Virus record (IMG/VR): IMGVR_UViG_3300042557_000251
Location: 1 to 30,190 of that record
Reading direction: 5' to 3' (one strand)
DNA: 30,190 nt
From: a virus
Shown piece after piece: positions 1 to 30,190 of this stretch (position 1 is the first letter of the stretch; each line of letters starts with the position of its first letter). Under the pieces are notes generated by a model that had not been told where the DNA came from, ran no database searches, and saw nothing but the letters and a program-made list of their open reading frames with translations. Made by a program: the position numbers and the translations under genes.

Positions 1-127
1 ATAATATAAATTTGTTACATAAATTAGTTTTAACAATTATTTAACTTTTCAAATGTTCCGATGCTATTAAGTACATCTTTTGCATTTTCTTAATTTCACC
101 TATATTACGTGGTAGGTTTATATTCAC
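1..127. repeat. terminal direct repeat, left copy
   Basis: These 127 bases are identical to 30064-30190. A 127-base exact overlap equals a common maximum assembly k-mer, so this is best read as the overlap left when a circular or terminally redundant genome is assembled, not as proof of physical direct terminal repeats. Removing one copy gives a unit of about 30,063 bp. The left copy contains the 3' part of the 49-aa gene at 41-190. Confidence 0.95.
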
Positions 128-190
128 CTCTTTACCTGTAGTGTGATGAATATAACATTGTATTGCTGCTATCATTTGCCCGTAAGTCAT
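41..190 (-). CDS. small conserved-looking phage protein, 49 aa
   Basis: An ATG at 188-190 opens a 49-codon frame that begins MTYGQMIAAIQCYIHHTTGK and ends at TAA 41-43. The composition is that of a normal soluble protein (mixed helix, IEIKK-like turns). It fills the space between the large terminase gene and the circular junction. I do not recognise a function, although similar small proteins starting with T-x-G-Q-M-I-A-A-I occur in flavobacterial phages as far as I recall. Its 5' side carries an inverted repeat that overlaps a promoter-like box. The end of the gene lies in the terminal repeat, so a truncated copy is seen at 30104-30190. Confidence 0.65.
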   Translation of the reverse strand: MTYGQMIAAIQCYIHHTTGKEVNINLPRNIGEIKKMQKMYLIASEHLKS

Positions 191-225
191 AGTTTAATTT
201 GTCAAGTTTCCGACATCATTTACTT

Positions 226-254
226 TGTCGCAAGTATAGTATTAATTTGCGACA
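226..254 (-). promoter_or_regulatory. inverted repeat overlapping a promoter-like box
   Basis: Perfect 8-base arms TGTCGCAA (226-233) and TTGCGACA (247-254) flank a 13-base spacer, directly after the large terminase stop codon. Read on the minus strand, TATACTTG (231-238) is one base from the Bacteroidota -7 consensus TAnnTTTG and overlaps one arm. There is no T-run after either arm, so it is not an ordinary intrinsic terminator. The layout fits an operator on the promoter of the 49-aa gene; a packaging or processing site is also possible. The role is inferred. Confidence 0.45.
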
Positions 255-1463
255 TTAATATATAAAATAGTTTCCTTTGTTAGCATTTCCTAATTGATAT
301 GTAACAGCGTAACGCAATGGGTCAAGTAAATGGTTGTGGGCATCCTGTGGCGTTTTTGACTTTTTTTCTAACCAACAGTAATTGTTTAATTCCCTAATTA
401 AGTTTATTGAATCAGGCGATACTATTAAATCATAATCTTGCAATACACTAATACCATAAGTAACAGAATCAGGCCCTTTAATTGCAGGAACTATATTTAA
501 ACCTAATGTAGCTAATTCAGATATTAATCTTGGTTCAGCACTATCTGCAACTATTAAAGCATCGTTTGCGTGTTGCTTGTTTAATTGATATATCTGACTT
601 GTTGTTAAACCTTTTAAATAAAACCTTTCATTAATATAAATTCGTTTGTTAGAACTATCTATATTACATTCTAATAAAGTTGATTCATCTGAAGCAAAAC
701 CATAATCTTGGCCAAAGATAGATTTACCTATTTGTTTATATTCTCCTATAGTCCAATTAGTAAATATAACTCCTTCTGCTTTATCTAACCAACCACCTAA
801 TATTTGATGCTTATACTTTTCAGGTCTGCGTTGTTTTATATTCTCTATTTGATTTATAAATGATTCAGATAGATTTTCTATATTATCTTGGTACGTTGTA
901 TGTATGTAGGTAGTATCGCCTTTAATTAAATTGCTTCCTGCTTCTACACCTTTATCTTCAAAGAACTTCTTATATATAAAGTGTTCTTTTGTTGCAGGGT
1001 TCAATACTAATAAAACCCTATTATGAATTCCTTTAGTACGAATACTGAAATCTATCTTTTCAAAAGTTTCTTCATCTGTTAATTCTTCTGCTTCATCTAA
1101 TACCCAAGTAGTAACACCTGCTAATGATTTTAAAGAAGCTGTTTGTGTACCACTACTTGTTTTAATACCTTTAAATAAGATTTTAGACCCTGTTTTAAGA
1201 TTTACTATTTCATCTTTAGTTATATAAAAATCGTTGCTTAAATCGGCTGTATCGATTTTATCTATAAATTCAGGTATAATAGAAACACTTGCAGAAGTTA
1301 AAGTGTAACGTGTGAATAATATCACGTGACCTGCTTCATAGGTTAATAGTAATAAAAAGGAATTAAGGGAATATGATTTACCACTTCCCCTTCCACCTGT
1401 AATTACAAAGTAACGACTATCTGAACCTAATAGATTATATTTCTGATTTATTGCTATTCCCAA
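255..1463 (-). CDS. terL: terminase large subunit (TerL)
   Basis: This is the DNA-packaging motor: an ATPase plus a nuclease that fills the prohead through the portal. The Walker A motif GGRGSGKS is at residues 23-30 and Walker B WVLDEAEE at about 120-127. The C-terminal RNase-H-like nuclease shows GQDYGF, VADSAEPR and DPLRYA, which carry the expected metal-binding aspartates. At 402 aa the length is normal. The start is unusual: the frame is closed by a TAA only six codons upstream, there is no methionine codon anywhere in it, and the best start is TTG at 1461-1463. The gene overlaps the small subunit gene by 29 bases, so translation is probably coupled. A frameshift from the small subunit is a less likely alternative. 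Confidence 0.95.
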   Translation of the reverse strand: MGIAINQKYNLLGSDSRYFVITGGRGSGKSYSLNSFLLLLTYEAGHVILFTRYTLTSASVSIIPEFIDKIDTADLSNDFYITKDEIVNLKTGSKILFKGIKTSSGTQTASLKSLAGVTTWVLDEAEELTDEETFEKIDFSIRTKGIHNRVLLVLNPATKEHFIYKKFFEDKGVEAGSNLIKGDTTYIHTTYQDNIENLSESFINQIENIKQRRPEKYKHQILGGWLDKAEGVIFTNWTIGEYKQIGKSIFGQDYGFASDESTLLECNIDSSNKRIYINERFYLKGLTTSQIYQLNKQHANDALIVADSAEPRLISELATLGLNIVPAIKGPDSVTYGISVLQDYDLIVSPDSINLIRELNNYCWLEKKSKTPQDAHNHLLDPLRYAVTYQLGNANKGNYFIY

Positions 1464-1734
1464 CTTTGAAGATATCTTTTATATTAAAATCGTTTACGTT
1501 GTGTGTAGCTTCTATAATTTCTTTTGGTTTACCAAATATATGTTCTGCAATAAATAATTGACCCCTTTGTGATTCCATTAATGTACCTTTAACAAAAGCT
1601 ATTTTAGTTTCTTCTTCTGTTTCTTTATTGTACAGTTCACCTAAAGCTTTTAAAAATACATTGTTTACCTTTTGTTCTTCTACTTTTGATTTACGACCTG
1701 CGTTTGGTCTTGCACCACCTCTTGGTTTTTCCAT
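1435..1734 (-). CDS. terS: putative terminase small subunit (TerS)
   Basis: A 99-aa protein starting MEKPRGGARPNAGRKSK. The G-G-A-R-P-N-A-G-R-K opening is a recurrent start of small-terminase-like and other DNA-binding phage proteins. The rest is helical and charged, which suits DNA recognition. It sits immediately upstream of, and overlaps, the large subunit gene, which is the main reason for the call. I chose the ATG at 1732-1734 over an upstream TTG at 1756-1758, which would add eight residues. The role is inferred from position and motif; a different small DNA-binding protein cannot be excluded. Confidence 0.65.
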   Translation of the reverse strand: MEKPRGGARPNAGRKSKVEEQKVNNVFLKALGELYNKETEEETKIAFVKGTLMESQRGQLFIAEHIFGKPKEIIEATHNVNDFNIKDIFKVGNSNKSEI

Positions 1735-1781
1735 TTGAAATAAATAATGATTATTCAATTTTAAATAATAATAAATAAAAA

Positions 1782-2180
1782 CTATTGTTGTTTAAGATTA
1801 TCAATAACTAAACTAAATACTTCGTGTGTTTCTTTTTCTGCCCAAGTTATTATTTCTTCTTCTAATTCGATATTATAATTATGAATTTCAAAAGAGTGAT
1901 GTAATAGTTCGTGAAATACACCCCCGAAAGTTTCATAATCATTACTGCATCTTTGTAGATTTATAAATACAAAAGTATCATCACCATTATTATAGATATT
2001 GTTTTCTTTTGGTACATAGTTTGCCAAACCCCATATATAAGCATCGTGTTTTGTGTTTTGATATTTTTCGCAATCATAACAATTCAATCCGTGCATTTCT
2101 TTAACTGAATAATAATAAAATATTTCGCAAGGGTTTTCACCTAATAATAAAGTATAACTATTTCTTTTTATTGCTATCAT
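1782..2180 (-). CDS. putative zinc metallopeptidase-like protein
   Basis: A 132-aa protein with the zinc-protease motif HELLHH at residues 90-95, followed by H100 and an acidic EEE at 107-109 that could supply the third ligand. Preceding hydrophobic strands (TFVFINLQ) resemble the edge strand of a metzincin or SprT-like fold. A CxxC pair (C34, C37) is also present. The start is set at ATG 2178-2180, which overlaps the TGA of the upstream gene as ATGA; a TTG at 2208-2210 would add ten residues. It lies just before the terminase genes. Substrate unknown; it may act on a virion or host protein. Confidence 0.55.
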   Translation of the reverse strand: MIAIKRNSYTLLLGENPCEIFYYYSVKEMHGLNCYDCEKYQNTKHDAYIWGLANYVPKENNIYNNGDDTFVFINLQRCSNDYETFGGVFHELLHHSFEIHNYNIELEEEIITWAEKETHEVFSLVIDNLKQQ

Positions 2181-2398
2181 AAGTTTACCTGTATCTTCAT
2201 TGTTGCACAACTTAATTTATGTTTGCCATTTTCTTGGTTACAATACTCACATACTTCCCAATAGTAATCACATTGATTATTTATATTAGGTGGTTTTACA
2301 AAGTATGATTGTCTATATTCTGATGGTTCTGCTTTATATCTGTAGCAGGTCTTTGCTAATTCGCAATAGTTACCATTACACATTGTTATATCAGGCAT
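2177..2398 (-). CDS. cysteine-rich small protein, 73 aa
   Basis: Eight cysteines spaced as CxxxxC near the N-terminus (CNGNYC) and CDYYWEVCEYC towards the C-terminus, plus HKLSC at the end, suggest one or two structural zinc sites. The start is ATG 2396-2398; its TGA overlaps the ATG of the metallopeptidase-like gene, so the two are coupled. Function not recognised; small zinc-binding proteins of this kind are common in phage early and middle regions. Confidence 0.7.
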   Translation of the reverse strand: MPDITMCNGNYCELAKTCYRYKAEPSEYRQSYFVKPPNINNQCDYYWEVCEYCNQENGKHKLSCATMKIQVNL

Positions 2399-2400
2399 AG

Positions 2401-2601
2401 TTATTTATTATTAAATGTTTCTTTGTAGTATTGTTTTGCATTAATTGTAGGAAATGAATTTTGACCATCTTCCCAAGCATCCATTATTTGTTGCTTGTGT
2501 ATTTCTTTAGCTTGTTTAATTTTATTTCTAAAATCAGGAGTACAATTTTCAATACTTCCAAAATGTTTTTCAATTAACCATTCTATTGCTGTTTGTTTCA
2601 T
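2401..2601 (-). CDS. small phage protein, 66 aa
   Basis: Begins MKQTAIEWLIEKHFG and continues with a charged helix containing AKEIHKQQIMDAWEDG. This MKQTA-x-EWL...QQI-x-DAW layout recurs in small proteins of Bacteroidota phages as I remember them, but no function is known to me. It is soluble, lacks cysteine clusters, and sits in a run of closely packed genes two bases from its neighbour. Confidence 0.7.
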   Translation of the reverse strand: MKQTAIEWLIEKHFGSIENCTPDFRNKIKQAKEIHKQQIMDAWEDGQNSFPTINAKQYYKETFNNK

Positions 2602-2603
2602 AA

Positions 2604-2762
2604 TTATTTTTTATAAAGTTTTGCTAATTCTTTTGTTACTTCTTTCCAATGCTCTGTTTGTTGCATTGTACCCATACATACACGCCTGTTATATTCTTTA
2701 GTGTATTTATTAAATAACATTTCAGCACGTTCTTTTGGTGTTATTGGTTCTATTGTATTCAT
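2604..2762 (-). CDS. small helical protein, 52 aa
   Basis: A frame from ATG 2760-2762 to TAA 2604-2606, starting MNTIEPITPKERAEMLFNKY. The sequence is charged and helical (KERAEMLFNKYTKEY; EHWKEVTKELAKLYKK). It fills the gap between two accepted genes exactly, with two bases to the next start. The opening P-K-E-R-A-x-x-L resembles a common family of short flavobacterial phage proteins. Function unknown. Confidence 0.75.
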   Translation of the reverse strand: MNTIEPITPKERAEMLFNKYTKEYNRRVCMGTMQQTEHWKEVTKELAKLYKK

Positions 2763-2768
2763 ATCTTG

Positions 2769-3044
2769 CTAAATAAAATAAGGTCTTATTGTTAATACTC
2801 CTAAGCTAAATCCTAATGCAAATGCTAAAGCTATTAAGAATCTTCCGTAAAATGTTTTTACTTCTATTGTAAAGTGATTCATTGGTAAACAAAGAAAAGG
2901 ATTTATAAATACCATTCCAACCATACCATACCAATTTTTTTGCATTAAATATGTAAAGCTTGCTATACTGTTTGCTTCTAAAACTATTGCAGATATAAAT
3001 ACTATTAATAGTTTCCACCAAGTAATTTTATCTTTTACTATCAT
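2769..3044 (-). CDS. small membrane protein, 91 aa
   Basis: Three hydrophobic stretches can be seen: about residues 12-32, 38-54 and 70-86, separated by short polar loops. This predicts an inner-membrane protein. Its ATG (3042-3044) overlaps the TGA of the DnaA-like gene as ATGA. Position in the replication/packaging transcription unit gives no direct clue to function; roles in superinfection exclusion or membrane anchoring are possible but unsupported. Confidence 0.7.
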   Translation of the reverse strand: MIVKDKITWWKLLIVFISAIVLEANSIASFTYLMQKNWYGMVGMVFINPFLCLPMNHFTIEVKTFYGRFLIALAFALGFSLGVLTIRPYFI

Positions 3045-3565
3045 ATCTTAATATTGTTATTCATTTTATAAAATGCTTCTAATCTATCGTTAATTAGTGT
3101 GTGTTGTATTGTACCTTTTGTGTTGCTTAATAGGTTGTTTAAATTATCTATTATTTGGTATTCGTATCTTGGTCTATCTAATTGTTCTTGTAATTCTTTT
3201 TTTAGTTTATCATTTTCAAATGTTAATTTATAAAGCTGTTGTTTTACTTTTTCAATTTCAGATAGTTCTTTTAATTCTTGTTCATTATCTATTGTAAAAT
3301 AACTTAATACAGTTGTTCTAAATTTCTTTAATTCAGGATTATATTCTTCATACATTTTATAATTCTTTAATGCGTGTATTACTGTAGCGTGGTTTAGTTC
3401 TAATGTATCACCTATTGCTTGAAGTGTTTTATTTGGCTTTAATTGTTTTAATACGTTACAATATAGTGAACGTAATTCAATAACTTCTCTTTTACGTGTT
3501 CTAATATCTATATCAGTGTTTGTCTCTTGCTTAATTATATCTTTTAATCTTTGTGTAATTTCCAT
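3041..3565 (-). CDS. DnaA domain-IV-like DNA-binding protein
   Basis: Residues about 22-70 match the C-terminal DNA-binding domain of DnaA: RKREVIELRSLYCNVLKQL leads into a helix-turn-helix with LQAIGDTLELNHATVIHAL, comparable to the DnaA signature G-R-D-H-T-T-V-x-H-A. The AAA+ domain of DnaA is absent. A long coiled coil (about 95-135, EIEKVKQQLYKL...) follows, so the 174-aa protein may dimerise. A role in recruiting or blocking replication initiation on phage or host DNA is inferred. It lies directly upstream of a membrane protein and downstream of an exonuclease gene. Confidence 0.75.
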   Translation of the reverse strand: MEITQRLKDIIKQETNTDIDIRTRKREVIELRSLYCNVLKQLKPNKTLQAIGDTLELNHATVIHALKNYKMYEEYNPELKKFRTTVLSYFTIDNEQELKELSEIEKVKQQLYKLTFENDKLKKELQEQLDRPRYEYQIIDNLNNLLSNTKGTIQHTLINDRLEAFYKMNNNIKI

Positions 3566-3574
3566 ATTTATTTT

Positions 3575-4348
3575 TTATAAAATTCCTCTTAATACGTATT
3601 GGTTTAAATCTACTTCTTCTTCGCCAAAGAAATATTTATAGTTTGCAATACCTTGTTCTAATTTTCTCTTTCCACTTTCATAAAATTCATCACTACATTC
3701 AAATATTCCAATATCTAAACTACCTTTATCTATTGCAACAAATACAAAATTATCTATACCAAACATTTCACGATATAAATATGCTTGTAAATCATAACTA
3801 TATTTAGCTGCAGAATATCTAAATTCATTTAACCCTGTAGTAGTTTTTAAATCTACAATAGTATTACCTTTTAATATATCTGCTTTTGCTCTAAATGGTA
3901 TTCCATCTATCATAGATATTGCAGGTATTTCAAATTGTGCTTTATTCATATAACTAACAGCTTCATCATTTCTTAATAGTGCATCTGCTAATCTTTCAGC
4001 ATCTTTTACTTCTTTTGAAGTATAAACATCTAAACCTTGTTCTTTAGCTTCTTTGTATGCTTTTCCTGCCTTTGTTGCTACATCTACAATTACTAAATCA
4101 TCTATCTTATGTGGTTCTAAAATCATAGTGTGAAATAATTTACCATCACGTAACGCTTGTGATTCACCTGAACCATATTTAGTAACATACTTATATGTTT
4201 TAGGCGATTGTATCAGCATTTTTAAACTTGAACTACTTAAAGCGTTTTTACCTAAATAACCATAATAAAAATCATCTTCATACATATTGTCTAATAGTTC
4301 TTGTTTATCCCAAATTTTGTTGTCGAAAGTTTTAATTGTTGTTTCCAT
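3575..4348 (-). CDS. RecE/RecB-type exonuclease (PD-(D/E)XK)
   Basis: A 257-aa nuclease of the exodeoxyribonuclease-VIII type. In order: LSSSSLKMLIQSPK (37-50), the conserved histidine in GKLFHTM (H73), the core AKADIL (D157) and IVDLKTT (D166, K168), and QAYLY (Q188, Y192) for the QxxxY motif. Such enzymes resect dsDNA ends to give 3' single strands. The ERF annealing protein and SSB elsewhere in the genome complete a phage recombination set. It overlaps the next upstream gene by 17 bases. Confidence 0.85.
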   Translation of the reverse strand: METTIKTFDNKIWDKQELLDNMYEDDFYYGYLGKNALSSSSLKMLIQSPKTYKYVTKYGSGESQALRDGKLFHTMILEPHKIDDLVIVDVATKAGKAYKEAKEQGLDVYTSKEVKDAERLADALLRNDEAVSYMNKAQFEIPAISMIDGIPFRAKADILKGNTIVDLKTTTGLNEFRYSAAKYSYDLQAYLYREMFGIDNFVFVAIDKGSLDIGIFECSDEFYESGKRKLEQGIANYKYFFGEEEVDLNQYVLRGIL

Positions 4349-4535
4349 TTATTATTATTAGTTTTAAAATATAGTTATAAATACTTAATTCACGTGTTGT
4401 ACTGTCAATAGCTTTGCTTAATTGGTCATCACTTAATAAACCTTGACCTGATATTAATTCATCTACATATCCTTTTAGTTCTCTATCTAAACCAAGTATT
4501 ATAGATTGTACTTTGATTAATGCGAGTTCATTCAT
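4332..4535 (-). CDS. small helical protein, 67 aa
   Basis: Helical, with leucine and isoleucine repeats (ALIKVQSIILGLDRELKGYV) and an asparagine-rich tail. It overlaps the exonuclease start by 17 bases and its own ATG overlaps the preceding TAA as TAATG, which supports translation. It may be an accessory partner of the exonuclease, but only position suggests this. Confidence 0.65.
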   Translation of the reverse strand: MNELALIKVQSIILGLDRELKGYVDELISGQGLLSDDQLSKAIDSTTRELSIYNYILKLIIINGNNN

Positions 4536-4744: not shown

Positions 4745-4755
4745 AGTTTTTGTTT

Positions 4756-4956: not shown

Positions 4957-4957
4957 A

Positions 4958-5134: not shown

Positions 5135-5173
5135 AATTTTTGTTTTTATTTGTTATTGTTTTAAATTGTTATA

Positions 5174-5236: not shown

Positions 5237-5238
5237 AT

Positions 5239-5556: not shown

Positions 5557-5813
5557 TTAAATCTTTTTGAGTGTAATGTATATAATTCCATTGTTTTTTT
5601 TAAAGCATCGTATTCTGTAAATTCAACATCAATATTATTTTCTTTGTAATTGTGAACTTCTAACCTGTTTGATATTTGAAATTTAACTACTTTATATTTC
5701 TTTGTATATTGTATTGGCTGTATTACGTATGCTAAATCATTTCTATTGCAAATATACATTGATTGTATTTCTGATTCTGTAGGTAAATATGTTGCTTCTT
5801 GCTTTTTAGTCAT
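5553..5813 (-). CDS. hypothetical protein, 86 aa
   Basis: Mixed beta-rich protein (AYVIQPIQYTKKYKVVKFQI) with a helical C-terminus EYDALKKTMELYTLHSKRFK. No recognised domain. It overlaps both neighbours by 4-8 bases, which indicates a coupled operon. ATG 5811-5813. Confidence 0.7.
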   Translation of the reverse strand: MTKKQEATYLPTESEIQSMYICNRNDLAYVIQPIQYTKKYKVVKFQISNRLEVHNYKENNIDVEFTEYDALKKTMELYTLHSKRFK

Positions 5814-6165
5814 TTAATTTTAAAAATTCTGTTTCACCATATTCTTTAAACCATTCTTTGTTTTCTTTATATTTATCAATTACTGCATTTATAAATACTA
5901 ATTCATCTATTGAACTTGTTTGCAGCTTTTTAATAATTGTTTCAATACTGTTTAAAATATTAGTTGTAGTTTCAGGGTCGGTATTATAAATTATTTTATA
6001 TTCGTTTCTTACTACTTCTTCTAAATCTTTATTTAAACTATTTATCTTGTGTTTTATTTGCTGTTTGTATTGTGTTGTAAAAAATAAACTTTCGTTTGCT
6101 TCTAACAATAATTGACTTAATAAAACGCTTTTTAAATATTCTTGTTGTATTATGTTTTGTTCCAT
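5806..6165 (-). CDS. hypothetical helical protein, 119 aa
   Basis: Almost wholly helical, with heptad-like leucines (EYLKSVLLSQLLLEANESL; INSLNKDLEEVVRNEYK). It lies directly downstream of, and overlaps by one base, the endonuclease-like gene, so it might be a partner or inhibitor of that protein. Only position supports this. ATG 6163-6165. Confidence 0.65.
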   Translation of the reverse strand: MEQNIIQQEYLKSVLLSQLLLEANESLFFTTQYKQQIKHKINSLNKDLEEVVRNEYKIIYNTDPETTTNILNSIETIIKKLQTSSIDELVFINAVIDKYKENKEWFKEYGETEFLKLND

Positions 6166-6809
6166 TATATTAAATTTGTTAATAGTATATTTATTTGATT
6201 TAATACCTTTTGCTTTTCATATAATTTACCATTTTCATAGTAGATTAAAAAATGTGGTACTTTAAATTTTTCTTTGTAGTTTGTTCTTTGCCTTTCGTGA
6301 TTTAATTTAGCTTGATTCTGATAGGGAGTATTCATATACATATAAGTTATTGGTTTAATCTGTAAACCTAAAAATAATTTATCATTTGAATATGCTTGCC
6401 AATCAGTAAAATAGTTTTCATCTAAATCATAATCAGCTTTTTTAAAATCAATGTTTGGGAATTCCTGTTTTAATTCTTCTATTAAATTTATTTCATTTAG
6501 CATACCATTCCAAGTTTGCCCAAGTACTCTAAATTTTACATAGTCATAACAAACAGCTTCACTTAAATTAGTTAATTCAATTAGTTTATTTGTTACTTCT
6601 TTTAAAATAGTAATTCCCATTACTGATTCATAGAATCTATACCATTCTGCAGGTTTTAATTCTATTGTTGATTTGTAGTAATCATCAAATATTTTAGCAC
6701 ATTTACCAACAGATGAACTTCTAAATAAATAAGATATTTTTTTATCTTTATTAAGTTTAGAAAATTCATCTTTACTTAATGATACTTCAAACCTATATTT
6801 ATTGTGCAT
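6165..6809 (-). CDS. restriction-endonuclease-like protein (MjaI-like)
   Basis: A 214-aa protein whose second half looks like a PD-(D/E)XK nuclease: a helix with GQTWNGMLNE (E106), then TDW (D136) and LGLQIKPITY (Q150, K152), giving an E...D...QxK arrangement. The T-W-N-G-x-x-x-E and Q-I-K-P-x-T-Y combination reminds me of the MjaI restriction family, whose founding member cuts CTAG. No cognate methylase is adjacent, but a cytosine methylase lies in the same unit. It could be a defence, counter-defence or host-DNA-degrading enzyme. The fold is moderately supported; the MjaI assignment is tentative. Confidence 0.5.
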   Translation of the reverse strand: MHNKYRFEVSLSKDEFSKLNKDKKISYLFRSSSVGKCAKIFDDYYKSTIELKPAEWYRFYESVMGITILKEVTNKLIELTNLSEAVCYDYVKFRVLGQTWNGMLNEINLIEELKQEFPNIDFKKADYDLDENYFTDWQAYSNDKLFLGLQIKPITYMYMNTPYQNQAKLNHERQRTNYKEKFKVPHFLIYYENGKLYEKQKVLNQINILLTNLI

Positions 6810-7179
6810 CTACTTTATATTCGTTGTAAACTTTTCTTAATTCCTGAATTTTACCTGCCCAACAAGAACCACAAGAACTTAACTGTAACCTATAATTAAA
6901 TACGTTGTAATAAATTTCAGCTATTGTATTTTGTTCTTCTGATGTTAATGAACTCTTTTTAGGGTCTATTAATTCAGTTAAAGCATTGTAATCTTTTTCG
7001 GTTAAACAATTAATGTTTCTGTTATAAGAAAATAACTGATTTAATTTTTCTTTACGTTCATCGCATCCACAATCTAAACCTGTTGCTTTGCTAAACATTT
7101 CTACTGCTTTTTTAATTCCTGTTGCTTCTGTGATTTGTTCTAAAGTGTCCCCTAAACCTTTTGCTTTTTGTTTTGTCAT
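6799..7179 (-). CDS. Bacteroidota phage protein with CGC / CGSC motifs
   Basis: A 126-aa protein starting MTKQKAKGLGDTLEQITEAT, with DCGCDERKEKLNQLF at about 36-50 and SSCGSCW at about 101-107. The G-L-G-D-T-x-x-x-I-T-x-A-T-G-I-K-K opening and the D-C-G-C-x-x-R-K-E-K-L-N motif recur in Bacteroidota phages as I recall, with no assigned role. The four cysteines could hold zinc. It overlaps the endonuclease-like gene by 11 bases. Confidence 0.7.
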   Translation of the reverse strand: MTKQKAKGLGDTLEQITEATGIKKAVEMFSKATGLDCGCDERKEKLNQLFSYNRNINCLTEKDYNALTELIDPKKSSLTSEEQNTIAEIYYNVFNYRLQLSSCGSCWAGKIQELRKVYNEYKVDAQ

Positions 7180-7190
7180 TTTATTAAATT

Positions 7191-7820
7191 TTAAATTAGT
7201 ATTAATTGTTTATTTATTATTTTATTACCTTTACTTAAATTATCAAATGCCCACAAAGGTTGAAAATTAGTATAATGATTTAATTTAATTACTTCTTGTT
7301 CATCTTTTGCTAAAGACATAGGATAAATATGGTCTAAATGCCATTCACCTTGATTATCCCAAGTCATACCTTTAATAAATTGTTTTTCTATATGTATTTT
7401 AAATTCTTCAAATGTACATCCTAAATATTCATAGGTTTTAGATTTTTTAGAATAACCTTGTCTTGTGATTGATTTTAATATTAAACTACCAATATTACAA
7501 CGCAATCTAAATAAAGGATTTTTAATTTTTTTATTTATTCTAAAATCATTTAATTTTTTTCTATTATTTAATCTATATTCTTTATTTCTTGATAATACTT
7601 TTTCTTTATTATTCAAATAATATTCTTTTTGTTTTTTTATAATACATTCTTTATTATTTAATCTATATTCTTTATAATATTCTTTTAAAGATTCTTTATT
7701 ATTTAATCTATAATCATTTGCACAATTTTTACAAATAACATTATATCCATCAATTCTGCTTTTATCTTTACAAAAATTAAAATAATCTTTATTAACTTTA
7801 CATTTAGTACATTCTTTCAT
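7191..7820 (-). CDS. HNH homing-type endonuclease, repeat-bearing
   Basis: The N-terminus is a zinc ribbon (C4, C7, C30, C33). Residues 37-86 then carry four YRLNNKE-like copies about 15-17 residues apart, probably a helical DNA-binding spacer. The C-terminus is the HNH core: WHLDHIYP (160-167, D163/H164), NHYTNFQPLW (181-190) and KGNK (197-200). The core is nearly identical to that of the gene at 12997-13503, so the two are recent paralogues. It is a likely free-standing homing endonuclease inserted between the sigma-like and CGC-motif genes. Confidence 0.85.
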   Translation of the reverse strand: MKECTKCKVNKDYFNFCKDKSRIDGYNVICKNCANDYRLNNKESLKEYYKEYRLNNKECIIKKQKEYYLNNKEKVLSRNKEYRLNNRKKLNDFRINKKIKNPLFRLRCNIGSLILKSITRQGYSKKSKTYEYLGCTFEEFKIHIEKQFIKGMTWDNQGEWHLDHIYPMSLAKDEQEVIKLNHYTNFQPLWAFDNLSKGNKIINKQLILI

Positions 7821-8362
7821 CAGTATATATTATTGTAATCGTTTGTTATATAATCTTGGTAATCTTTTTCAAATTTGTTTTTAAGTATTTCTTTGTAGTT
7901 TTTAATGCTATGAAATATTGATATTAAACTAATATTTGTTTCACTTGCAATATCACGCATACTCATATCAGTATCCCTGTAAAGTTTAAATAGCTTTTTA
8001 TCGTACCAATGCCAATTATCTATTTCCTCATCAATCATTAAACATATATCATTATAAGCGTTTTGTTCTTCTATGTTTGAATCATCAAATAATTCCCAAC
8101 ATCCATCAAAAGGCACTTTATTTACAAGTTTCTTTTTATTGTAGTATTGGTAGTATAAAGAACGTAATGTAAAAAACATATATCCTTTACGTACATTTCC
8201 TTTATCATCTATTAACTTTTCTGCATTTGCATACTTCATTAAAGCAATATAAGATTCTTGTACTATATCTTCAGCGTAATCATATTCACCAAGTTTCTGA
8301 ATAGTTTTAACCCATTCTTTGTGGTGCTTTGCTACTTGTTCAAGCCATTTGAAGTTGTCCAT
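7820..8362 (-). CDS. sigma-70-family (ECF-like) RNA polymerase sigma factor
   Basis: A 180-aa protein with region 2 at about 12-75 (YAEDIVQESYIALMKY, then YMFFTLRSLYYQYYNKKK) and a region-4 helix-turn-helix at about 118-162 (LYRDTDMSMRDIASETNIS). Such proteins redirect host RNA polymerase to selected promoters; in this genome it would be a natural driver of the late unit, though this is inference. The TGA overlaps the downstream ATG as TGATG. The acidic linker (LFDDSNIEEQNAYND) is typical. ATG 8360-8362. Confidence 0.8.
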   Translation of the reverse strand: MDNFKWLEQVAKHHKEWVKTIQKLGEYDYAEDIVQESYIALMKYANAEKLIDDKGNVRKGYMFFTLRSLYYQYYNKKKLVNKVPFDGCWELFDDSNIEEQNAYNDICLMIDEEIDNWHWYDKKLFKLYRDTDMSMRDIASETNISLISIFHSIKNYKEILKNKFEKDYQDYITNDYNNIY

Positions 8363-8857: not shown

Positions 8858-9712
8858 TTATTGTTTTATAAATGAAAAAATATGTTCTATTATTGGTAAA
8901 GTCCATCCATCACCTAATAAACTACCTGCTTTTCTACTTGTAAGTATATCACAATAATCATCAGAAAAACCCTGTAAACGACACATTTCTATTTTATTGC
9001 AAGTTCTATAAATATCAACTTCTTTAATTAATGTAATCATACCTGTAGTTTCGTTTCTATGTGTTAAATATTCTTGTTTTGAATTTTCCATAGAACCACT
9101 TAAAGTATTTAAACAAGTATGTTTATTTATATCTACTTTGCCACTTGTTAGAATTTGATTTAAAAGTATTCCTTTGTCTTTTGGTTGTGGTATATCTGTA
9201 ACAATATCACCAAACATACCATCTTGTTTTGTTCTTATATTACTCCAATAATACCTATCACGTAATTGTGCTGTTACTAAACTACTATTAATTCTAACAG
9301 GGTAAACTCCTAATGCTCTTGACATAATACCTACATCTTCTTTTCTTGCACTACCTACATTTTCTTGCAAAAATAAAACATTTGGATTTAATGATTTTAT
9401 ATGTTCTAATATTTCTACAAATGTAAAAAATAGACTTGACTTTTTACCATTAATACCTGCACGTTTTCCTGCAGCACTTAAATCTTGACAAGGTGAACCT
9501 GATAAAACTAAATCAATACTTTTCCAATCTATATCCCATTCACGCCATTTAGTAACATCACCAACTTGAATTGTATCAGGAAAATGATATTGTGTTAATT
9601 CAATAGCATAAGGTTTAATTTCGCTTGAATAGTATTTGTTTACTTTGATGCCTACATTTTCTAATGCTTGGCGACCTGTATTCATTCCGTTAAATAATGA
9701 TAGTACATTCAT
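8858..9712 (-). CDS. DNA (cytosine-5) methyltransferase, DNMT3-like
   Basis: A 284-aa enzyme with the full C5-methylase motif order: I VLSLFNGMNTG (3-13), IV SGSPCQDLS (catalytic C75), VI QENV (116-119), VIII QLRDRYYW (149-156), IX with RLQGF (245-249) and X GDGWTLP (267-273). The N-terminus and the D-L-S after the catalytic Cys resemble eukaryotic DNMT3 and its phage relatives more than Dcm. The target-recognition region between VIII and IX is short (about 80 residues), so the specificity is probably short. It may protect phage DNA against restriction; the target is not predictable here. Confidence 0.92.
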   Translation of the reverse strand: MNVLSLFNGMNTGRQALENVGIKVNKYYSSEIKPYAIELTQYHFPDTIQVGDVTKWREWDIDWKSIDLVLSGSPCQDLSAAGKRAGINGKKSSLFFTFVEILEHIKSLNPNVLFLQENVGSARKEDVGIMSRALGVYPVRINSSLVTAQLRDRYYWSNIRTKQDGMFGDIVTDIPQPKDKGILLNQILTSGKVDINKHTCLNTLSGSMENSKQEYLTHRNETTGMITLIKEVDIYRTCNKIEMCRLQGFSDDYCDILTSRKAGSLLGDGWTLPIIEHIFSFIKQ

Positions 9713-10967: not shown

Positions 10968-11483
10968 TTAAATTGATATAAAATTTAAATCATTTTCTAA
11001 TTCTAATTTATGTGTAAACCAAGTTGTTTGAAACCAAGCACCGCTTTTTTTATTTGGTATAAAATTAAATCTTTTATTTGGTATTAATAATTGTATTTTA
11101 TTATTATTAAATAAATCACCTCTTTTAACACCCTCTAAAGTAGTAATAGGTAATAAAAACATAAAAGGTTTATCTAATTCAAATGCTCTTTTTAAAAATT
11201 TATCCTTTAATGAATAAGGAGGATTTGTAATAATCATATCATATGCTTCAGGTTCATATTTAAAAAAATCTTGTTCATTTTCAATATGTGAAGTTATAAC
11301 ATTATATCCATTATTTTTTAAAATTTCTACTATTTTACTATTTTTTATTGCTGTACACTCCCAAATTGTTTTAACATTTTTAGGTATAAATTTAATAATC
11401 ATTTCTACAGCTTCATAAGGAGTATATAATTCATCATAAACTCCTCTTTTAATAAAATCTATTTTTGTTTCTAATAAACTCAT
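10968..11483 (-). CDS. N6-adenine methyltransferase-like protein, degenerate motif I
   Basis: A 171-aa protein with the catalytic motif TNPPY (86-90) preceded by YDMII, and the C-terminal GAWFQTTWFTHKL usual in small phage adenine-methylase-like proteins. The SAM-binding motif I should read like W-E-P-A-x-G-x-G; here it is WECTAIKNSKI (41-51), without the glycines. It may be inactive, bind SAM atypically, or act on a different nucleobase. It lies between SSB and ERF genes, with a 56-base gap to SSB. Confidence 0.65.
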   Translation of the reverse strand: MSLLETKIDFIKRGVYDELYTPYEAVEMIIKFIPKNVKTIWECTAIKNSKIVEILKNNGYNVITSHIENEQDFFKYEPEAYDMIITNPPYSLKDKFLKRAFELDKPFMFLLPITTLEGVKRGDLFNNNKIQLLIPNKRFNFIPNKKSGAWFQTTWFTHKLELENDLNFISI

Positions 11484-12996: not shown

Positions 12997-13503
12997 TTAT
13001 ATTTTATTTCCTTTTCTTATGTTATCTTTTGCCCATAATGGTTGAAAATTTGTGTAATGATTTAGTTTTATTAATTCATCTTCATCTTTAGCAAGTGATA
13101 CAGGGTAAATATGGTCTAAATGCCACTTACCTTGATTTTCCCAAGTCATACCTTCCGTAAATTTATTTTCTAAATATTCTTTAAAATATTCATAAGAACA
13201 ACCTAATATTTTAAAAGATTTTGTTTTTTTACTATAATTATTATTTTTTATAGAATTACCAATTAAAGTTCTAATGTTAGATTTTAATTTAAATAAATTA
13301 TCTGTTAATCTTCTTTTTTTATTATAAATTCTATTGTTTTTTCTTTTTCTTTCAATATTATTTACACTATATTTTTTATGATATTCTATTTGATATAATG
13401 TTATACAAACTTTACAAGTTCCTCTTAAACCATCTTTATTTTCTTTGGCTTTTGAAAAATCTTCTAAATTTTTTTCTATATTACATTTTACACATTTTTT
13501 CAT
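12997..13503 (-). CDS. HNH homing-type endonuclease, paralogue of 7191-7820
   Basis: A 168-aa protein with a zinc ribbon (C4, C7, C30, C33), a basic linker and the HNH core WHLDHIYPVSLAKDE (127-141) and HYTNFQPLW, ending at KGNKI. The last 50 residues closely match those of the 209-aa HNH protein. It lacks the YRLNNKE repeats and nine terminal residues. It directly abuts NinG and is preceded by its own promoter-like box only four bases from the ATG, as expected for an inserted mobile gene. Confidence 0.85.
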   Translation of the reverse strand: MKKCVKCNIEKNLEDFSKAKENKDGLRGTCKVCITLYQIEYHKKYSVNNIERKRKNNRIYNKKRRLTDNLFKLKSNIRTLIGNSIKNNNYSKKTKSFKILGCSYEYFKEYLENKFTEGMTWENQGKWHLDHIYPVSLAKDEDELIKLNHYTNFQPLWAKDNIRKGNKI

Positions 13504-16373: not shown

Positions 16374-16449
16374 TTTTCAATTTATTTAAAAAGATTTCTA
16401 ATTTTTTTACATTAGTTTCTTTTGGTTTGTATGTTTCTTTTGTAGCCAT
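16363..16449 (-). CDS. possible 28-aa basic peptide
   Basis: ATG 16447-16449 to TGA 16363-16365, starting MATKETYKPKETNVKKLEIF. It overlaps the end of the HNH gene by 38 bases and the WG-repeat gene start by 11 bases. It may be an original phage gene whose upstream side was displaced by the HNH insertion. Its small size keeps confidence low. Confidence 0.35.
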   Translation of the reverse strand: MATKETYKPKETNVKKLEIFLNKLKNGK

Positions 16450-16849
16450 CTTTTTTTTGATAATGTAATAAACCATTTTCTACAGCGTGCAAATGATTTT
16501 CATAATTTGTAACCCACTCTAAATTTTCAAGTCTATTATCTGTTTTTATACAATTAATATGATTAACTTGTTTTTTATTTTCTGCATTATCTATAAAAGA
16601 TTTTGCCACTAATTGATGTACTAAATGATTCTTTTTAATTCCATCAATATTTAATGTACATCTACAATATCCTTTAGGAGTTATCCAAAAAGGAATTAAC
16701 TTTCCTTTGTAGGTATATAAAGTTTTTTGTGTAGGAATAAAAGGGTTTGTCCTTTCTATTTTTCTTGTTACACTTCTTACTCTACCTAAATCACTTACTT
16801 CATAATAGCCATTGTATCCACTTATTGGCTTCCAAATTTCTGTTTGCAT
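16412..16849 (-). CDS. NUMOD4-HNH homing endonuclease
   Basis: A 145-aa protein with the NUMOD4 opening IWKPISGYNGYYEVSDLGRV (5-24) and a C-terminal HNH_3 core: HLVHQLVAKSFI (75-86), VNHINCIKTDNRLENLEWVT (95-114) and ENHLHA (117-122). This is a compact free-standing homing endonuclease, unrelated to the two zinc-ribbon HNH proteins elsewhere in the genome. It lies between the connector and the WG-repeat gene in the late region, a common insertion point for such genes. Confidence 0.88.
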   Translation of the reverse strand: MQTEIWKPISGYNGYYEVSDLGRVRSVTRKIERTNPFIPTQKTLYTYKGKLIPFWITPKGYCRCTLNIDGIKKNHLVHQLVAKSFIDNAENKKQVNHINCIKTDNRLENLEWVTNYENHLHAVENGLLHYQKKDGYKRNIQTKRN

Positions 16850-21912: not shown

Positions 21913-21916
21913 AATT

Positions 21917-26950: not shown

Positions 26951-28020
26951 TATATTACGTTGTTAATTAAACTATCTGAGTATTCAAAATCAATAGTAAA
27001 GTTTATATTCTTATCTAACAAATTAGTTTTATATTGTAACGATTGTGTTTTAATTGTTACAGGTTTTGTATCTAATAAAATAGTTTCACTTAACATTAAT
27101 TCTTTTATAAAAGTATTATATCCCTCGGTAACCCAACCTGTATTACAAGTTATAGTCTGCTTTCCGTTTATGTTAAATGATTTATTTGTTCCCTCATTTG
27201 TATTGTAATATATATCAGAAGGCATTAAATTATATTTGCTACCTTGTACATCAATTTTATTAGTTTGTGCTTTAAAGAACGTTATTTGTTGCCATCCGCC
27301 ATTTTTATTTACATAAGTACAATTTACAGGCGTATATTTACATTCTTCTATCTTTTCTGTATATACTCTATACAAAACTCCTAATGCATCACTTTCAATT
27401 TCACAAAAAGCAGAATTATTATAAGCTAATGGTAATTTATAATTAAAATAATCAGTTGAGCCACTTGGTAAAAAAAGATTTGAATGTATTGAAGTACCTG
27501 CAGAATTAAAATAAGTAATTAAATAATCATTTGCAGTTTCTCGTTTTACTAAAAAATTAAAAGATGGTATATTATTATAATATTGAATTTTATTATTTAA
27601 ATTATTTGAAGTGCCTAACAATACAAAATCTTCATCATTAGCAATACTATAATTTAAACCTTCTGCAACATCTGTATAAGCATTAACACCAAGATATAAA
27701 TTATTATCTAATAAAGTAAAAGTGCCCGATACGTTTTTATATCTTTTAACCCTAACAAAACACCAATCAGAATTATTTGTTATAGTAGGACTTGCAGAAT
27801 ATATAGGCGCAATTTGATTAACATATTCTAATATATAAGGTGATATATTATAGTTGGTTTCTATTTGTGTTGCTGAAGCAATATTAGAACTTAAAATATA
27901 TGTTGGAATTGTAGGTTCTGTTGTACCTTTATTCCAAATAAATAATTCTACTTTACTTCCTGTTTGTCCCGATTCATCTATTATTATTTGGTATGGGCTT
28001 CTTGCACTTATTACATTCAT
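26950..28020 (-). CDS. tail protein, 356 aa
   Basis: A beta-rich protein starting MNVISARSPYQIIIDESGQT, then SKVELFIWNKG, YNISPYILEYVNQI and DWCFVRVKRYKN. The S-P-Y-x-I-x-I...G-S-K-V-E-L opening and the central N-I-S-P-Y-I motif are familiar from Bacteroidota phage tail genes, where it is co-located with the 790-aa type. I infer a distal-tail or baseplate role. One-base overlaps with both neighbours. Confidence 0.65.
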   Translation of the reverse strand: MNVISARSPYQIIIDESGQTGSKVELFIWNKGTTEPTIPTYILSSNIASATQIETNYNISPYILEYVNQIAPIYSASPTITNNSDWCFVRVKRYKNVSGTFTLLDNNLYLGVNAYTDVAEGLNYSIANDEDFVLLGTSNNLNNKIQYYNNIPSFNFLVKRETANDYLITYFNSAGTSIHSNLFLPSGSTDYFNYKLPLAYNNSAFCEIESDALGVLYRVYTEKIEECKYTPVNCTYVNKNGGWQQITFFKAQTNKIDVQGSKYNLMPSDIYYNTNEGTNKSFNINGKQTITCNTGWVTEGYNTFIKELMLSETILLDTKPVTIKTQSLQYKTNLLDKNINFTIDFEYSDSLINNVI

Positions 28021-28526
28021 TATTTTCTATCTTTTAAATTATAATCTACTATTGTTTCAACATCTTGACCGAACGCTTTTATTAAATCTGTATCTATGTA
28101 TTTTTTATATCCTGCTTCAAATGGTTTTGTAAAAAATAAAGAAGGTTTAATACCATTTAAAAAAATACTTCTTGCTATTGCATATTGTAAACTTTGTCTT
28201 GATTGAAATTCACCCTTAGCGTTACGTGGTGCAATACCTTTTTTAACTATCCATTTATCAAACGCTTTTGCAGGTGGCATTTTATCTTTGTAACTATAAG
28301 GCGTATTGTATTTTTTTAATTTACCTGAAACTCCTTTGTCCTGATAATGCCCGTAATCTAACATTGTAAAACCTACAATAGTAAATTTTTTTTCTGTTAC
28401 TACTTCACCATCAATAGAATTATAAAGTGCCTTAGAACTATTTTTATTCCCTTTACTTAAATTGCTTCTTGATTGTTGTATTACATAATCTCTGAAGCGT
28501 TTTAATACTGTTTCAACTTCTAACAT
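28020..28526 (-). CDS. HK97 gp10-like tail completion protein
   Basis: A 168-aa protein with a helical start (LEVETVLKRFRDYVIQQSRS), a strand pair around FTIVGFTMLDYGHYQDKGVS and a C-terminal helix set (SLQYAIARSIFLNGIKPSLF). The Y-G-x-Y-x-D-K-G-V-S-G loop is usual in Bacteroidota gp10-like head-tail joining proteins. It overlaps the tail-terminator candidate by 7 bases and the next gene by one. Confidence 0.65.
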   Translation of the reverse strand: MLEVETVLKRFRDYVIQQSRSNLSKGNKNSSKALYNSIDGEVVTEKKFTIVGFTMLDYGHYQDKGVSGKLKKYNTPYSYKDKMPPAKAFDKWIVKKGIAPRNAKGEFQSRQSLQYAIARSIFLNGIKPSLFFTKPFEAGYKKYIDTDLIKAFGQDVETIVDYNLKDRK

Positions 28527-28975
28527 TTTGTCATTTTATTTTCAATAGCAATATCAAAAGTAAAAGTTACACCTGCTATTTTATTTTCAAATCTTTCAGT
28601 AAAGAATTCAATGTTTGCAGTACCATTAACTAATTCATAATCTTCTGCTAATGCACCTCTGCGTAATACTTCTAAAAATCTATTTGCTACAGCTAATTGT
28701 GTATTTAATACATCTTGTTCATTATCGTTGCCCAAGAATATATCTGTAACTTTTGATTTAGATTCATCTACAATATCCATACATAAAATAGATATATTAT
28801 AATTTAATACAGGACCTTGATACGATACTGAATTTACTATAATATGACTTAATGGAAATATAGTTTGCTTATTTAAATCTACTTTAAATATATCACCTGT
28901 TGTAACTGTATTGACAAATAAATCTTCTTGTAGTTTATTCTTTATTACTTGTGTTATTTCGTAAAATGTACTCAT
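28520..28975 (-). CDS. tail terminator-like protein
   Basis: A 151-aa protein with alternating strand-helix pattern (FPLSHIIVNSVSYQGPVLNYN, NTQLAVANRFLEVLRRG, GVTFTFDIAIEN) suggesting the tail-terminator fold that caps the tail tube. Its ATG (28973-28975) overlaps the stop codon of the -1 frame of the chaperone gene as TAATG, linking the two. Function inferred from fold pattern and position. Confidence 0.6.
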   Translation of the reverse strand: MSTFYEITQVIKNKLQEDLFVNTVTTGDIFKVDLNKQTIFPLSHIIVNSVSYQGPVLNYNISILCMDIVDESKSKVTDIFLGNDNEQDVLNTQLAVANRFLEVLRRGALAEDYELVNGTANIEFFTERFENKIAGVTFTFDIAIENKMTKC

Positions 28976-29226
28976 TATCTTTTTTTAATTAAATCCGATT
29001 CTATTTTGTTTTTTTGTTTTTCAAATGTTAGGTATGTTAAACATTGGTTAATTGGTAATTCTGTGATTGTGTCAAATCTTGTAATATCTCCTTGAGCAAG
29101 TCCATAGATTGAACTATACCAACCCCATCGTTTTCCGAATTGTGCTGTTGCAGAATAGTCTGCATCTGCGTGTTGTTCTCCAAATAGTTCATCGTACTTT
29201 TCAATAATTCGTTGCCTAAATTGTAA
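28975..29226 (-). CDS. -1 frame extension of the tail assembly chaperone
   Basis: An 83-codon open frame in the -1 frame that follows the U9 run. It starts LQFRQRIIEKYDELFGEQHA and contains FGKRWGWYSSIYGLAQGDI and CLTYLTFEKQKNKIE, a coherent protein similar to the C-terminus of tail proteins in flavobacterial phages. There is a TAA just upstream of the run in this frame and no ATG in the frame, so it should be made as a frameshift fusion (165 + 83 = 248 aa). Its TAA overlaps the next ATG, as for a real gene end. The alternative is a homopolymer length error, which would leave this as the true C-terminus. Confidence 0.75.
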   Translation of the reverse strand, partial: LQFRQRIIEKYDELFGEQHADADYSATAQFGKRWGWYSSIYGLAQGDITRFDTITELPINQCLTYLTFEKQKNKIESDLIKKR

Positions 29227-29720
29227 AAAAAAACATTAGCACCAAATACAACATCTAAAGGTGCGTGTTTCATTACATCACTATAAGTTATACTACCATT
29301 GTATTTTTCTATTTCGTATGTATTATTTAAACCCTTCTTTGTAATTGGTCTAAATAAAACAGCCATAGCTTTGTGCATATTTTCCCAATCACCAATGTAT
29401 GAATCTAAATCTGTATATTCGCCAAAAGTCATTTCATCTAAATCAGGAATAAAACCAAATTCAACTCCACCAAGTTTAAATCTGTTTATAAACCTATGTG
29501 ATTTAACATCAAACATTTTACCAAGTGATGCAGTTATTTGTAACACATCCTTATATTTAATTTCAGCTACATCTTTTAAATCTATATTGCAAAACGTTTG
29601 AACCATTTTCTGATTCAAGAATTCCATATCGTCATTATCTTTAGCTATCTTTAAGAACGCTTGATATTGTGATAACTTAATTTCATTTAATTCTGTTGGT
29701 ACGCTAATTTCTAATTTCAT
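29037..29720 (-). CDS. tail assembly chaperone-like protein (0 frame)
   Basis: A 227-aa protein, starting MKLEISVPTELNEIKLSQYQ and containing EFGFIPDLDEMTFGEYTDLD and AMAVLFRPITKKG. This family is common in Bacteroidota phages at the start of the tail genes. Codons 163-165 (GTT TTT TTT) form the slippery site. Past it the 0 frame continues for 62 residues and stops at 29037-29039. The short form and the longer frameshifted form together resemble the gpG/gpGT pair of lambda that guides tape-measure assembly. The start is ATG 29718-29720 (an upstream GTG at 29778-29780 lies in the terminator). Confidence 0.8.
   Translation of the reverse strand: MKLEISVPTELNEIKLSQYQAFLKIAKDNDDMEFLNQKMVQTFCNIDLKDVAEIKYKDVLQITASLGKMFDVKSHRFINRFKLGGVEFGFIPDLDEMTFGEYTDLDSYIGDWENMHKAMAVLFRPITKKGLNNTYEIEKYNGSITYSDVMKHAPLDVVFGANVFFYNLGNELLKSTMNYLENNTQMQTILQQHNSENDGVGIVQSMDLLKEILQDLTQSQNYQLTNV
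29225..29233 (-). other. U9 slippery sequence
   Basis: On the mRNA nine uridines are read in the 0 frame as GUU UUU UUU UAC. The core U-UUU-UUU is a perfect X-XXY-YYZ heptamer for a -1 slip, after which UUA CAA is read in the extension frame. No obvious pseudoknot was identified downstream by eye. Confidence 0.7.
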
Positions 29721-29767
29721 ATTATTGTTTTTTATATTAATAACTATTTTATGATATTGTATTAAAC

Positions 29768-29797
29768 AAAAAAAAGGCACATATTTCTATGCACCTT
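29768..29797 (-). terminator. terminator after the 68-aa gene
   Basis: Minus strand AAGGTGCATA (29788-29797) pairs with TATGTGCCTT (29774-29783), two G-T pairs, GAAA loop, followed by a T-run. It separates the short first gene of unit 1 from the tail genes, whose own promoter is not evident. Confidence 0.75.
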
Positions 29798-29828
29798 AAT
29801 TAACCAAATTAACTAATCTAAACAAAAT

Positions 29829-30035
29829 TTAATTTTCTATTTCCTCTATTGCTAAATCAATAATATCATTATATTGTTTTGTAGATAATATTTCATAAAC
29901 ATCAACACCTTGTATTAATACTTCTGCATCTTCAATACAGCTTCCTGTATAATCATAATCAGAACCTTTTATATAGAATCCTTTTACTTCAAATTCTATA
30001 TCGCAATAATTTACGAATACTTTTACTTTTTTCAT
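29829..30035 (-). CDS. small acidic protein, 68 aa, first gene of unit 1
   Basis: Starts MKKVKVFVNYCDIEFEVKGF. Two beta strands, then a Tyr/Asp-rich loop (GSDYDYTGSCIEDAE) and strand-helix (VLIQGVDVYEIL...). This V-x-V-x-Y-x-x-x-E-x-E-V-x-G-x-Y design recurs in short phage proteins that I cannot assign. It is directly behind the promoter box at 30059-30066 and is followed by its own terminator. Confidence 0.65.
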   Translation of the reverse strand: MKKVKVFVNYCDIEFEVKGFYIKGSDYDYTGSCIEDAEVLIQGVDVYEILSTKQYNDIIDLAIEEIEN

Positions 30036-30058
30036 TTTGCTTTGTTTTAAATTTTTAA

Positions 30059-30066
30059 CAAATATA
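30059..30066 (-). promoter_or_regulatory. Bacteroidota-type promoter of transcription unit 1
   Basis: Minus strand TATATTTG matches TAnnTTTG, 24 bases before the ATG of the 68-aa gene, with an A-rich leader (ATTTAAAACAAAGCAAA). A GTTAAAA element lies further upstream, like the GTTAAAG elements at the two other promoters. Its last three bases fall in the terminal repeat. Confidence 0.6.
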
Positions 30067-30190
30067 ATATAAATTTGTTACATAAATTAGTTTTAACAAT
30101 TATTTAACTTTTCAAATGTTCCGATGCTATTAAGTACATCTTTTGCATTTTCTTAATTTCACCTATATTACGTGGTAGGTTTATATTCAC
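30064..30190. repeat. terminal direct repeat, right copy
   Basis: Identical to bases 1-127. See the left copy for the interpretation as a circularising assembly overlap. Confidence 0.95.
30104..30190 (-). CDS. partial copy of the 49-aa gene
   Basis: This is the 3' part of the gene at 41-190, repeated at the end of the window because of the terminal overlap. The 5' end is cut by the window edge. It is not a second gene. Confidence 0.65.
   Translation of the reverse strand: MNINLPRNIGEIKKMQKMYLIASEHLKS

Follow-up and report, generated by a model that had tools for sequence, protein, structure and literature searches.

PacI is described as a solitary restriction enzyme, tolerated without a partner since the genome of its bacterium has no PacI site (PMC3488263). 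The restriction enzymes of chloroviruses, which are virus-encoded and have short targets, are portrayed as presumed degraders of host DNA and have companion methyltransferases (PMC7019647). For phages, host restriction is given as a well-documented cause of recognition-site avoidance, with a loss of type II sites that is stronger in non-temperate phages (PMC6286503), and gp210 of phage PhiPA3, a homing HNH enzyme that is encoded in an intron and whose specific target lies within a gene of a rival, is presented as a nuclease that harms other DNA and spares its own genome (PMC11620839). Here, we analyzed a contig of 30,190 bases, IMG/VR virus record IMGVR_UViG_3300042557_000251, positions 1-30,190 (hereafter, the window), which carries a gene for an MjaI-like restriction endonuclease and in which the words CTAG and CCAG/CTGG are absent. 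The window resembles MjaI-type restriction-modification (R-M) systems, whose endonuclease R.MjaI we take to recognize CTAG, in having a Pfam RE_MjaI protein and CTAG as the apparent target word. It differs from them in that no cognate methyltransferase was found, the sites are absent rather than methylated, and CCAG/CTGG is gone as well, whereas 20 bacterial loci with RE_MjaI genes keep some CTAG and normal CCAG/CTGG. PacI, with a site of 8 bases, is bacterial; here, the word is 4 bases long and has disappeared from a whole phage group, although 64 copies (137 together with CTGG/CCAG) would be expected in 30 kb. Unlike the chloroviruses, these phages seem to rely on site absence in place of companion methyltransferases; unlike in phage site avoidance as usually described, the enzyme is encoded by the phage and not by the host; and unlike the homing enzyme gp210, it would be an enzyme for a short word whose gene has a fixed slot.

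We consider it probable, at roughly 80%, that this endonuclease is an unpaired enzyme of the MjaI family which is kept safe by self-avoidance and cuts host or rival DNA. Two features of the window are central to this reading:

1-30190, no strand: stretch free of CTAG, CCAG/CTGG, GATC, CATG, and AGGCT/AGCCT, with CTNAG strongly depleted (word counts, shuffles)
6165-6809, minus strand: MjaI-like restriction endonuclease of 214 amino acids, candidate CTAG/CTRG cutter (Pfam RE_MjaI, PADLOC, structure model, conserved residues)

The window, a contig not proven to be a whole genome (related records reach 30-35 kb), contains 0 CTAG, 0 GATC, and 0 CATG, and as these words are palindromes, both strands are covered. 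The original prediction had claimed these three absences by eye, along with a ready occurrence of other palindromes of the same composition and an expectation of several dozen for each missing word, and computed counts confirmed the three absences. At a guanine-cytosine (GC) content of 27%, base composition predicts about 70 of each, and a trinucleotide model, which does not predict the absence either, expects 64.2 CTAG (z −9.3), 49.8 GATC (z −8.1), and 56.1 CATG (z −8.7), while the control palindromes GTAC (74 observed/82 expected), TGCA (176/188), and ACGT (62/59) were near expectation. Synonymous-codon shuffles (300 runs over 48 reading frames, 27.3 kb) gave means of 42.0, 37.9, and 34.2 for CTAG, GATC, and CATG, and minima of 28, 25, and 21. 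A codon ending in C never preceded Met (0/146) or Trp (0/82), compared to about 6.5% before other codons. Chance, composition, and codon use were ruled out as the cause, since both the trinucleotide model and the shuffles expect dozens of sites. The list of three words was correct but incomplete, as a fourth absence had been overlooked: CCAG/CTGG, both orientations together, occurs 0 times against 72 expected (shuffle mean, 71). In addition, AGSCT (AGGCT/AGCCT) was absent (0 versus 21 expected) and CTNAG was strongly depleted (9 versus 58). AGSCT is present in most contigs with the endonuclease gene. CTTA/TAAG is also low in the window (170 versus 374 expected), which the CTNAG depletion explains only partly.

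The open reading frame (ORF) at 6165-6809 on the minus strand matched Pfam RE_MjaI (PF09568) with 26.0 bits, above the family cut-off of 22.7, in agreement with an earlier hint that an endonuclease-like gene here was of the MjaI type, and it also had a PADLOC REase_II match (4.7e-11). Its structure model has a predicted local distance difference test (pLDDT) score of 92.7, and the best solved match was Hjc, with a modest Z of 8.1 (root mean square deviation [rmsd] 2.8, 101 aligned), followed by similarly modest matches to I-Bth0305I (Z 7.5), BsaWI (7.5), and Vsr (7.4), all four of which we take to be PD-(D/E)xK nucleases. Foldseek alone found no match to this model with an E value below 0.001. 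In an alignment of 146 relatives, one of them a fragment, D136, Q150, and K152 were identical in all 145 that have these columns, and these are likely the catalytic residues. Of four divergent phage endonucleases compared to PF09568, three passed the cut-off and that of contig L156 had no match (contigs are given by our own G and L handles), and the profile also missed the phage homologue in G036, which alignment A1 recovered. Searching the sequences of solved structures with alignment A1 returned one weak match (E 0.21), not to a nuclease, and tblastn with the endonucleases of the window, L156, and L146 found nothing among 50,697 phage records.

No PF01555 protein and no cognate methyltransferase were found in the window, which thus, like PacI and its bacterium, combines a genome without the apparent target site with an enzyme without a partner methyltransferase. 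Among the phage carriers of the gene, an M.MjaI-like match lay within 3 kb in 5/146 (21-40% identity; 3 kb were available on both sides in 58/146), and any PF01555 methyltransferase was present in 7/26 large carrier records. The bacterial homologues differ. An earlier pattern scan of bacterial genome contigs had returned two homologues; this was no sign of rarity, and the scan was judged insensitive because a profile search found RE_MjaI above cut-off in 61/395 genomes of the phylum of G066, a likely host phylum. In the 20 loci from these 61 genomes that lay on long contigs, an M.MjaI-like methyltransferase was within 3 kb of the RE_MjaI gene in 20/20, and CCAG/CTGG was normal (2785 observed/2805 expected). 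M.MjaI itself is reported to be homologous to a CTAG N4-cytosine methyltransferase (PMC5867850).

To compare relatives, viral contigs were gathered by the endonuclease (38-99% identical to that of the window) and by the capsid protein, taking at most 80 loci per viral search, a part of at least 599 capsid relatives and of the 122 and 214 endonuclease relatives reported, and whole contigs were fetched for many loci that had been cut. The first comparison covered 158 contigs, leaving out loci of <4000 bases and loci replaced by the whole contig. Its 84 gene carriers contained 0 CTAG against 2942 expected, and its 74 contigs without a detected gene contained 1076 against 2691. A prediction of zero sites in new carriers was then written before a scan with divergent members. 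Among the resulting 63 new carriers (GC, 0.28-0.48), 62 were free of CTAG (in total 1 versus 1675 expected) and 60 free of CCAG/CTGG (6 versus 2559), with control words nearer to expectation (GTAC 2513/2801, TGCA 2997/3736). In all, CTAG occurred once against 4598 expected in 146 gene-carrying contigs (1.85 Mb). This count omits L018, removed because the contig looks joined from two phages: L018:1-9083 carries two copies of the gene block, one holding family f63 and the other the MjaI-like gene, and all five CCAG/CTGG sites of the contig are confined to the f63 part, probably reflecting two co-occurring phages joined in assembly.

The endonuclease was also the best predictor of site absence among 121 gene families (tested in contigs where 8 or more sites are expected, for families present in at least 5 contigs), matching CTAG absence in 82/82 and CCAG absence in 75/82 carriers, and it was again the best in 219 contigs, also without L018 (CTAG 144/144, CCAG 138/144). 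Relatedness was taken into account in a pair test that used a tree built from the sigma-like gene nearby; 14 of its 88 rows lack the endonuclease, and nine independent pairs were obtained. For CTAG=0, 6 pairs went with the gene, 0 against, and 3 showed no difference (p 0.031); for CCAG=0, the averages were 7.6 for, 0 against, and 1.4 without difference (median p 0.008). Without five rows that were doubtful or on long branches, the pairs stood at 7 to 0 for CTAG and at 8.4 to 0 for CCAG=0. The same test was not significant for GATC=0 (4.0 versus 0.5) or CATG=0 (2.0 versus 2.0).

CCAG/CTGG was as scarce as CTAG in 140 carriers (10 versus 5769 expected). The other six (G036, L040, L041, L043, L045, and L046) kept CCAG/CTGG (223/244) and had no CTAG (0/154), and in the enzyme tree they make up a single clade (Shimodaira-Hasegawa-like approximate likelihood ratio test [SH-aLRT] 85; partial sequences from L039, L047, and L150 were omitted), which joins its sister L042, a contig avoiding both words, with an SH-aLRT of 99. 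A seventh exception, outside that clade, was the apparently joined L018. Because CCAG/CTGG is as absent as CTAG except in one enzyme clade, and CCGG is kept in several carriers, the absent sites point to CTRG as the probable target of the window's enzyme, and a narrowing to CTAG is the simplest reading of the one clade. For the window's group, the broader target CYRG, which would add CCGG, was rejected, as CCGG is kept in G046 (11/10), G049 (9/9), and G056 (34/31); other carriers are without it, e.g., G055 (0/14). In the GC-rich carriers L295-L317 without L299 (GC about 0.43-0.48), CCGG is nearly absent, e.g., 0/23 in L296 and 0/20 in L316, which suggests that in this group either the target is widened to CYRG or a host enzyme is at work. 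L293 and L294 keep some CCGG.

As to a possible homing function, which would imply a mobile gene with a long target beside its insertion, the endonuclease gene occupies one conserved slot in drawn contigs, and the words linked to it are 4 bases long. Many of these contigs share the order sigma-like f3, f10 or f42, endonuclease, f16 or f38, and a DUF3799 protein. Among 14 gene-less relatives in which the slot is visible, CTAG sites were present in 11. The slot was held in 11/14 by the protein f63, which has about 130 residues and a model similar to Holliday junction resolvases of the Hjc type (Z 11.6, rmsd 2.7, 100 aligned), so that one nuclease appears to replace another; the endonuclease was also present in 1/12 f63 contigs (L285). 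As an Hjc-like protein stands in its place, the swap suggests a general nuclease job during infection. G022, which is near the window in the sigma-like tree and has no gene, contains 2/70 CTAG and 12/80 CCAG, as might be expected soon after gene loss. A separate pattern was seen in G003 (L059), G005 (L064), L055, L062, and L071, where no MjaI-like gene was detected and CTAG is avoided, but not CCAG; GANTC is nearly missing in L055 (0/18), L064 (2/31), and L059 (3/28), a different restriction signature.

Together, these patterns can be arranged into a likely course of events. Phages of this group probably gained the endonuclease from a bacterial R-M system without its methyltransferase, and their enzyme most likely cuts CTAG and CTGG/CCAG, i.e., CTRG. 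The phage's own genome would be immune through having no site, and it would stay at zero because any site created by mutation would be cut and lost. Unprotected DNA in the same cell would be the substrate, most likely the host chromosome and possibly rival phages; in unprotected DNA of the window's composition, CTRG is expected about every 220 bases. Cutting of the host could bring host shut-down and freed nucleotides, and by analogy with the chloroviruses, we favor host takeover as the enzyme's use. We also lean, with less assurance than for the reading as such, toward a fuller version, in which the phage group runs a "restriction without modification": an unpaired CTRG cutter retained for attacking other DNA, with immunity due solely to continuously selected site absence, whose target has shifted at least once (CTRG to CTAG) with the forbidden words following.

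Several observations weigh against an unpaired, self-avoiding enzyme as the whole explanation. CTAG was 0 in 20/74 contigs without a detected gene, many of them short, so that the relevant part may be missing; L049, L050, and L051, with zero CTAG, have capsids 96-99% like the window's. Since contigs without a detected gene can be free of CTAG, the gene is not necessary for its absence. In the gene-less G004, G010, and G023, in which the slot is visible, CTAG is 0 against 91, 95, and 87 expected, and CCAG is partly back (5/97, 22/110, and 5/94); this suggests that another pressure on CTAG, such as host enzymes, acts there, and it argues against simple loss and decay. Host pressure on CTAG does exist, given how common MjaI-type enzymes are in the likely host phylum, and it may explain the scarcity of CTAG in gene-less relatives; the 20 bacterial loci themselves are about fivefold depleted of CTAG (83/425, present in 19/20). 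The prediction for new carriers was missed for CTAG in L266, whose single site sits in an apparent terminator hairpin, and for CCAG/CTGG in L270, L289, and L298. The pair test was not significant at looser CTAG thresholds of 5% of expectation (median p 0.0625) and 10% (median p 0.125, range 0.125-0.25), because some gene-less relatives still have few CTAG. The trees were quick and have several long branches, all counts come from metagenome contigs, and because the contigs are related, the 146 carriers are not 146 independent events. As a separate detail, all four CCAG/CTGG sites of L298 lie within about 230 bases (L298:3691-3917), like a recently acquired patch.

Part of this evidence would also be accommodated if all four absences came from host restriction by Bacteroidota enzymes and the phage endonuclease were incidental or served another purpose. 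Host restriction has been amply documented as a cause of site avoidance (PMC6286503), RE_MjaI genes are frequent in the phylum of G066, CTAG is low in gene-less relatives down to zero in three with a visible slot, and GATC and CATG are avoided with and without the gene. This explanation leaves it unaccounted for, however, that it is the gene alone that sets near-zero CTAG apart from variable CTAG, that CCAG/CTGG is lost along with the gene even though the bacterial RE_MjaI loci keep it, and that one enzyme clade avoids CTAG only; three cultured flavobacterial phages, moreover, keep CTAG (143/138, 99/111, and 82/130). We regard it as distinctly unlikely. Of the original prediction that the tetramers were lost through exposure to restriction, the selective loss stands, but host restriction is not the best account of the CTAG absence, since CTAG loss follows the phage gene, most gene-less relatives with a visible slot have sites, and the loss of CCAG/CTGG accompanies the gene. 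That the absence merely follows from base composition, codon use, or TAG avoidance is next to impossible: the low GC of the window and the scarcity of CTAG in many bacteria speak for it, but models and shuffles that expect dozens of sites, control palindromes near expectation, and the lack of any TAG within CCAG/CTGG all contradict it.

Two further alternatives keep part of the preferred reading. Self-avoidance could be correct and the enzyme serve chiefly to attack co-infecting phages instead of taking over the host; this is conceivable, if doubtful. It would fit the gene-less relatives that also have no CTAG, as if evading the enzyme, and a homing endonuclease is reported to give PhiPA3 such an advantage over PhiKZ (PMC11620839). 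On the other hand, the gene lies in a conserved block, the Hjc-like f63 in its slot suggests a general nuclease role, and chlorovirus restriction enzymes are tied to the degradation of host DNA, not to mutual exclusion, in the account of PMC7019647. It is also rather unlikely that the CCAG/CTGG absence stems from another phage gene linked to the endonuclease instead of a broadened target. The bacterial loci, which do not avoid CCAG/CTGG, would agree with this, as would the homology of M.MjaI to CTAG methyltransferases (PMC5867850), which would make a broadened target new. The HNH-like family f50, found twice in the window, occurs in 14 contigs, 13 of them avoiding CCAG; it covers only these 14, however, none of the other tested families matches the endonuclease as a predictor of CCAG avoidance, and apart from L018, the exceptions are one clade of the endonuclease's own tree.

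GATC and CATG are a separate matter from CTAG. They are avoided whether or not a contig has the endonuclease, and their absence is probably due to host restriction, the usual reason for a loss of this kind (PMC6286503). A search for a gene behind GATC, CATG, and CTNAG (207, 205, and 219 contigs) gave best p values of 2.7e-5, 2.7e-6, and 2.4e-4, links that look weak next to 1e-31 and are subject to confounding by clade.

Loss of sites in phages is commonly interpreted as host evasion, and here the signature points to the phage's own enzyme. The strongest new point is that this phage probably excludes from its genome the words that its enzyme cuts; in the open-access PMC literature, by titles and the starts of abstracts and with most subscription papers outside the search, no phage restriction enzyme protected by site absence was found. 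If self-avoidance is the correct reading, forbidden words could reveal phage-encoded nucleases and their targets from sequence alone, site avoidance would be no evidence about the host until the phage's own genes had been checked, and relatives that had lost such an enzyme would offer a natural test of the speed of site regain.

The remaining features of the window relevant here are as follows:

3575-4348, minus strand: DUF3799 PD-(D/E)xK protein, family f9 (Pfam PF12684, 4e-18)
5806-6165, minus strand: conserved downstream neighbor of the endonuclease, family f16 (gene order in drawn contigs)
6799-7179, minus strand: conserved upstream neighbor of the endonuclease, family f10 (gene order in drawn contigs)
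7191-7820 and 12997-13503: two related HNH-like proteins of one family, with a zinc-ribbon-like start (by eye)
7820-8362, minus strand: sigma-70-like protein of family f3, with which the conserved block begins (TIGR02985, 1e-8, below cut-off)
8858-9712, minus strand: C5-cytosine methyltransferase (PF00145, 6e-27), not of the PF01555 type seen beside bacterial RE_MjaI genes
10968-11483, minus strand: adenine-methyltransferase-like (Dam-like) protein (phrog_799, 3e-36; Pfam Dam below cut-off)
16412-16849: NUMOD4-HNH_3 protein, a homing endonuclease by type, directly upstream of the structural genes on the minus strand

Terminase and portal genes are present in the window. The portal is 37% identical to that of the Nonlabens phages P12024S and P12024L, and the f3 protein matches, with a score under the cut-off, the model TIGR02985, whose name refers to sigma factors of Bacteroidota; on these grounds, the window is probably from a phage of Bacteroidota. 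The f3 protein also scored just over the cut-off for Pfam UPF0122 and under that for Sigma70_r2. Megablast of window bases 1-25000 against the 50,697 phage records gave no match. The C5-cytosine methyltransferase, whose family is present in 10 contigs of the first set, and the Dam-like protein are not needed to explain the zero sites. The DUF3799 protein lies downstream of the conserved block in many drawn contigs and is a possible exonuclease acting after the endonuclease. In the window, the HNH-like ORF at 7191-7820 sits inside the conserved block, between f3 and f10.

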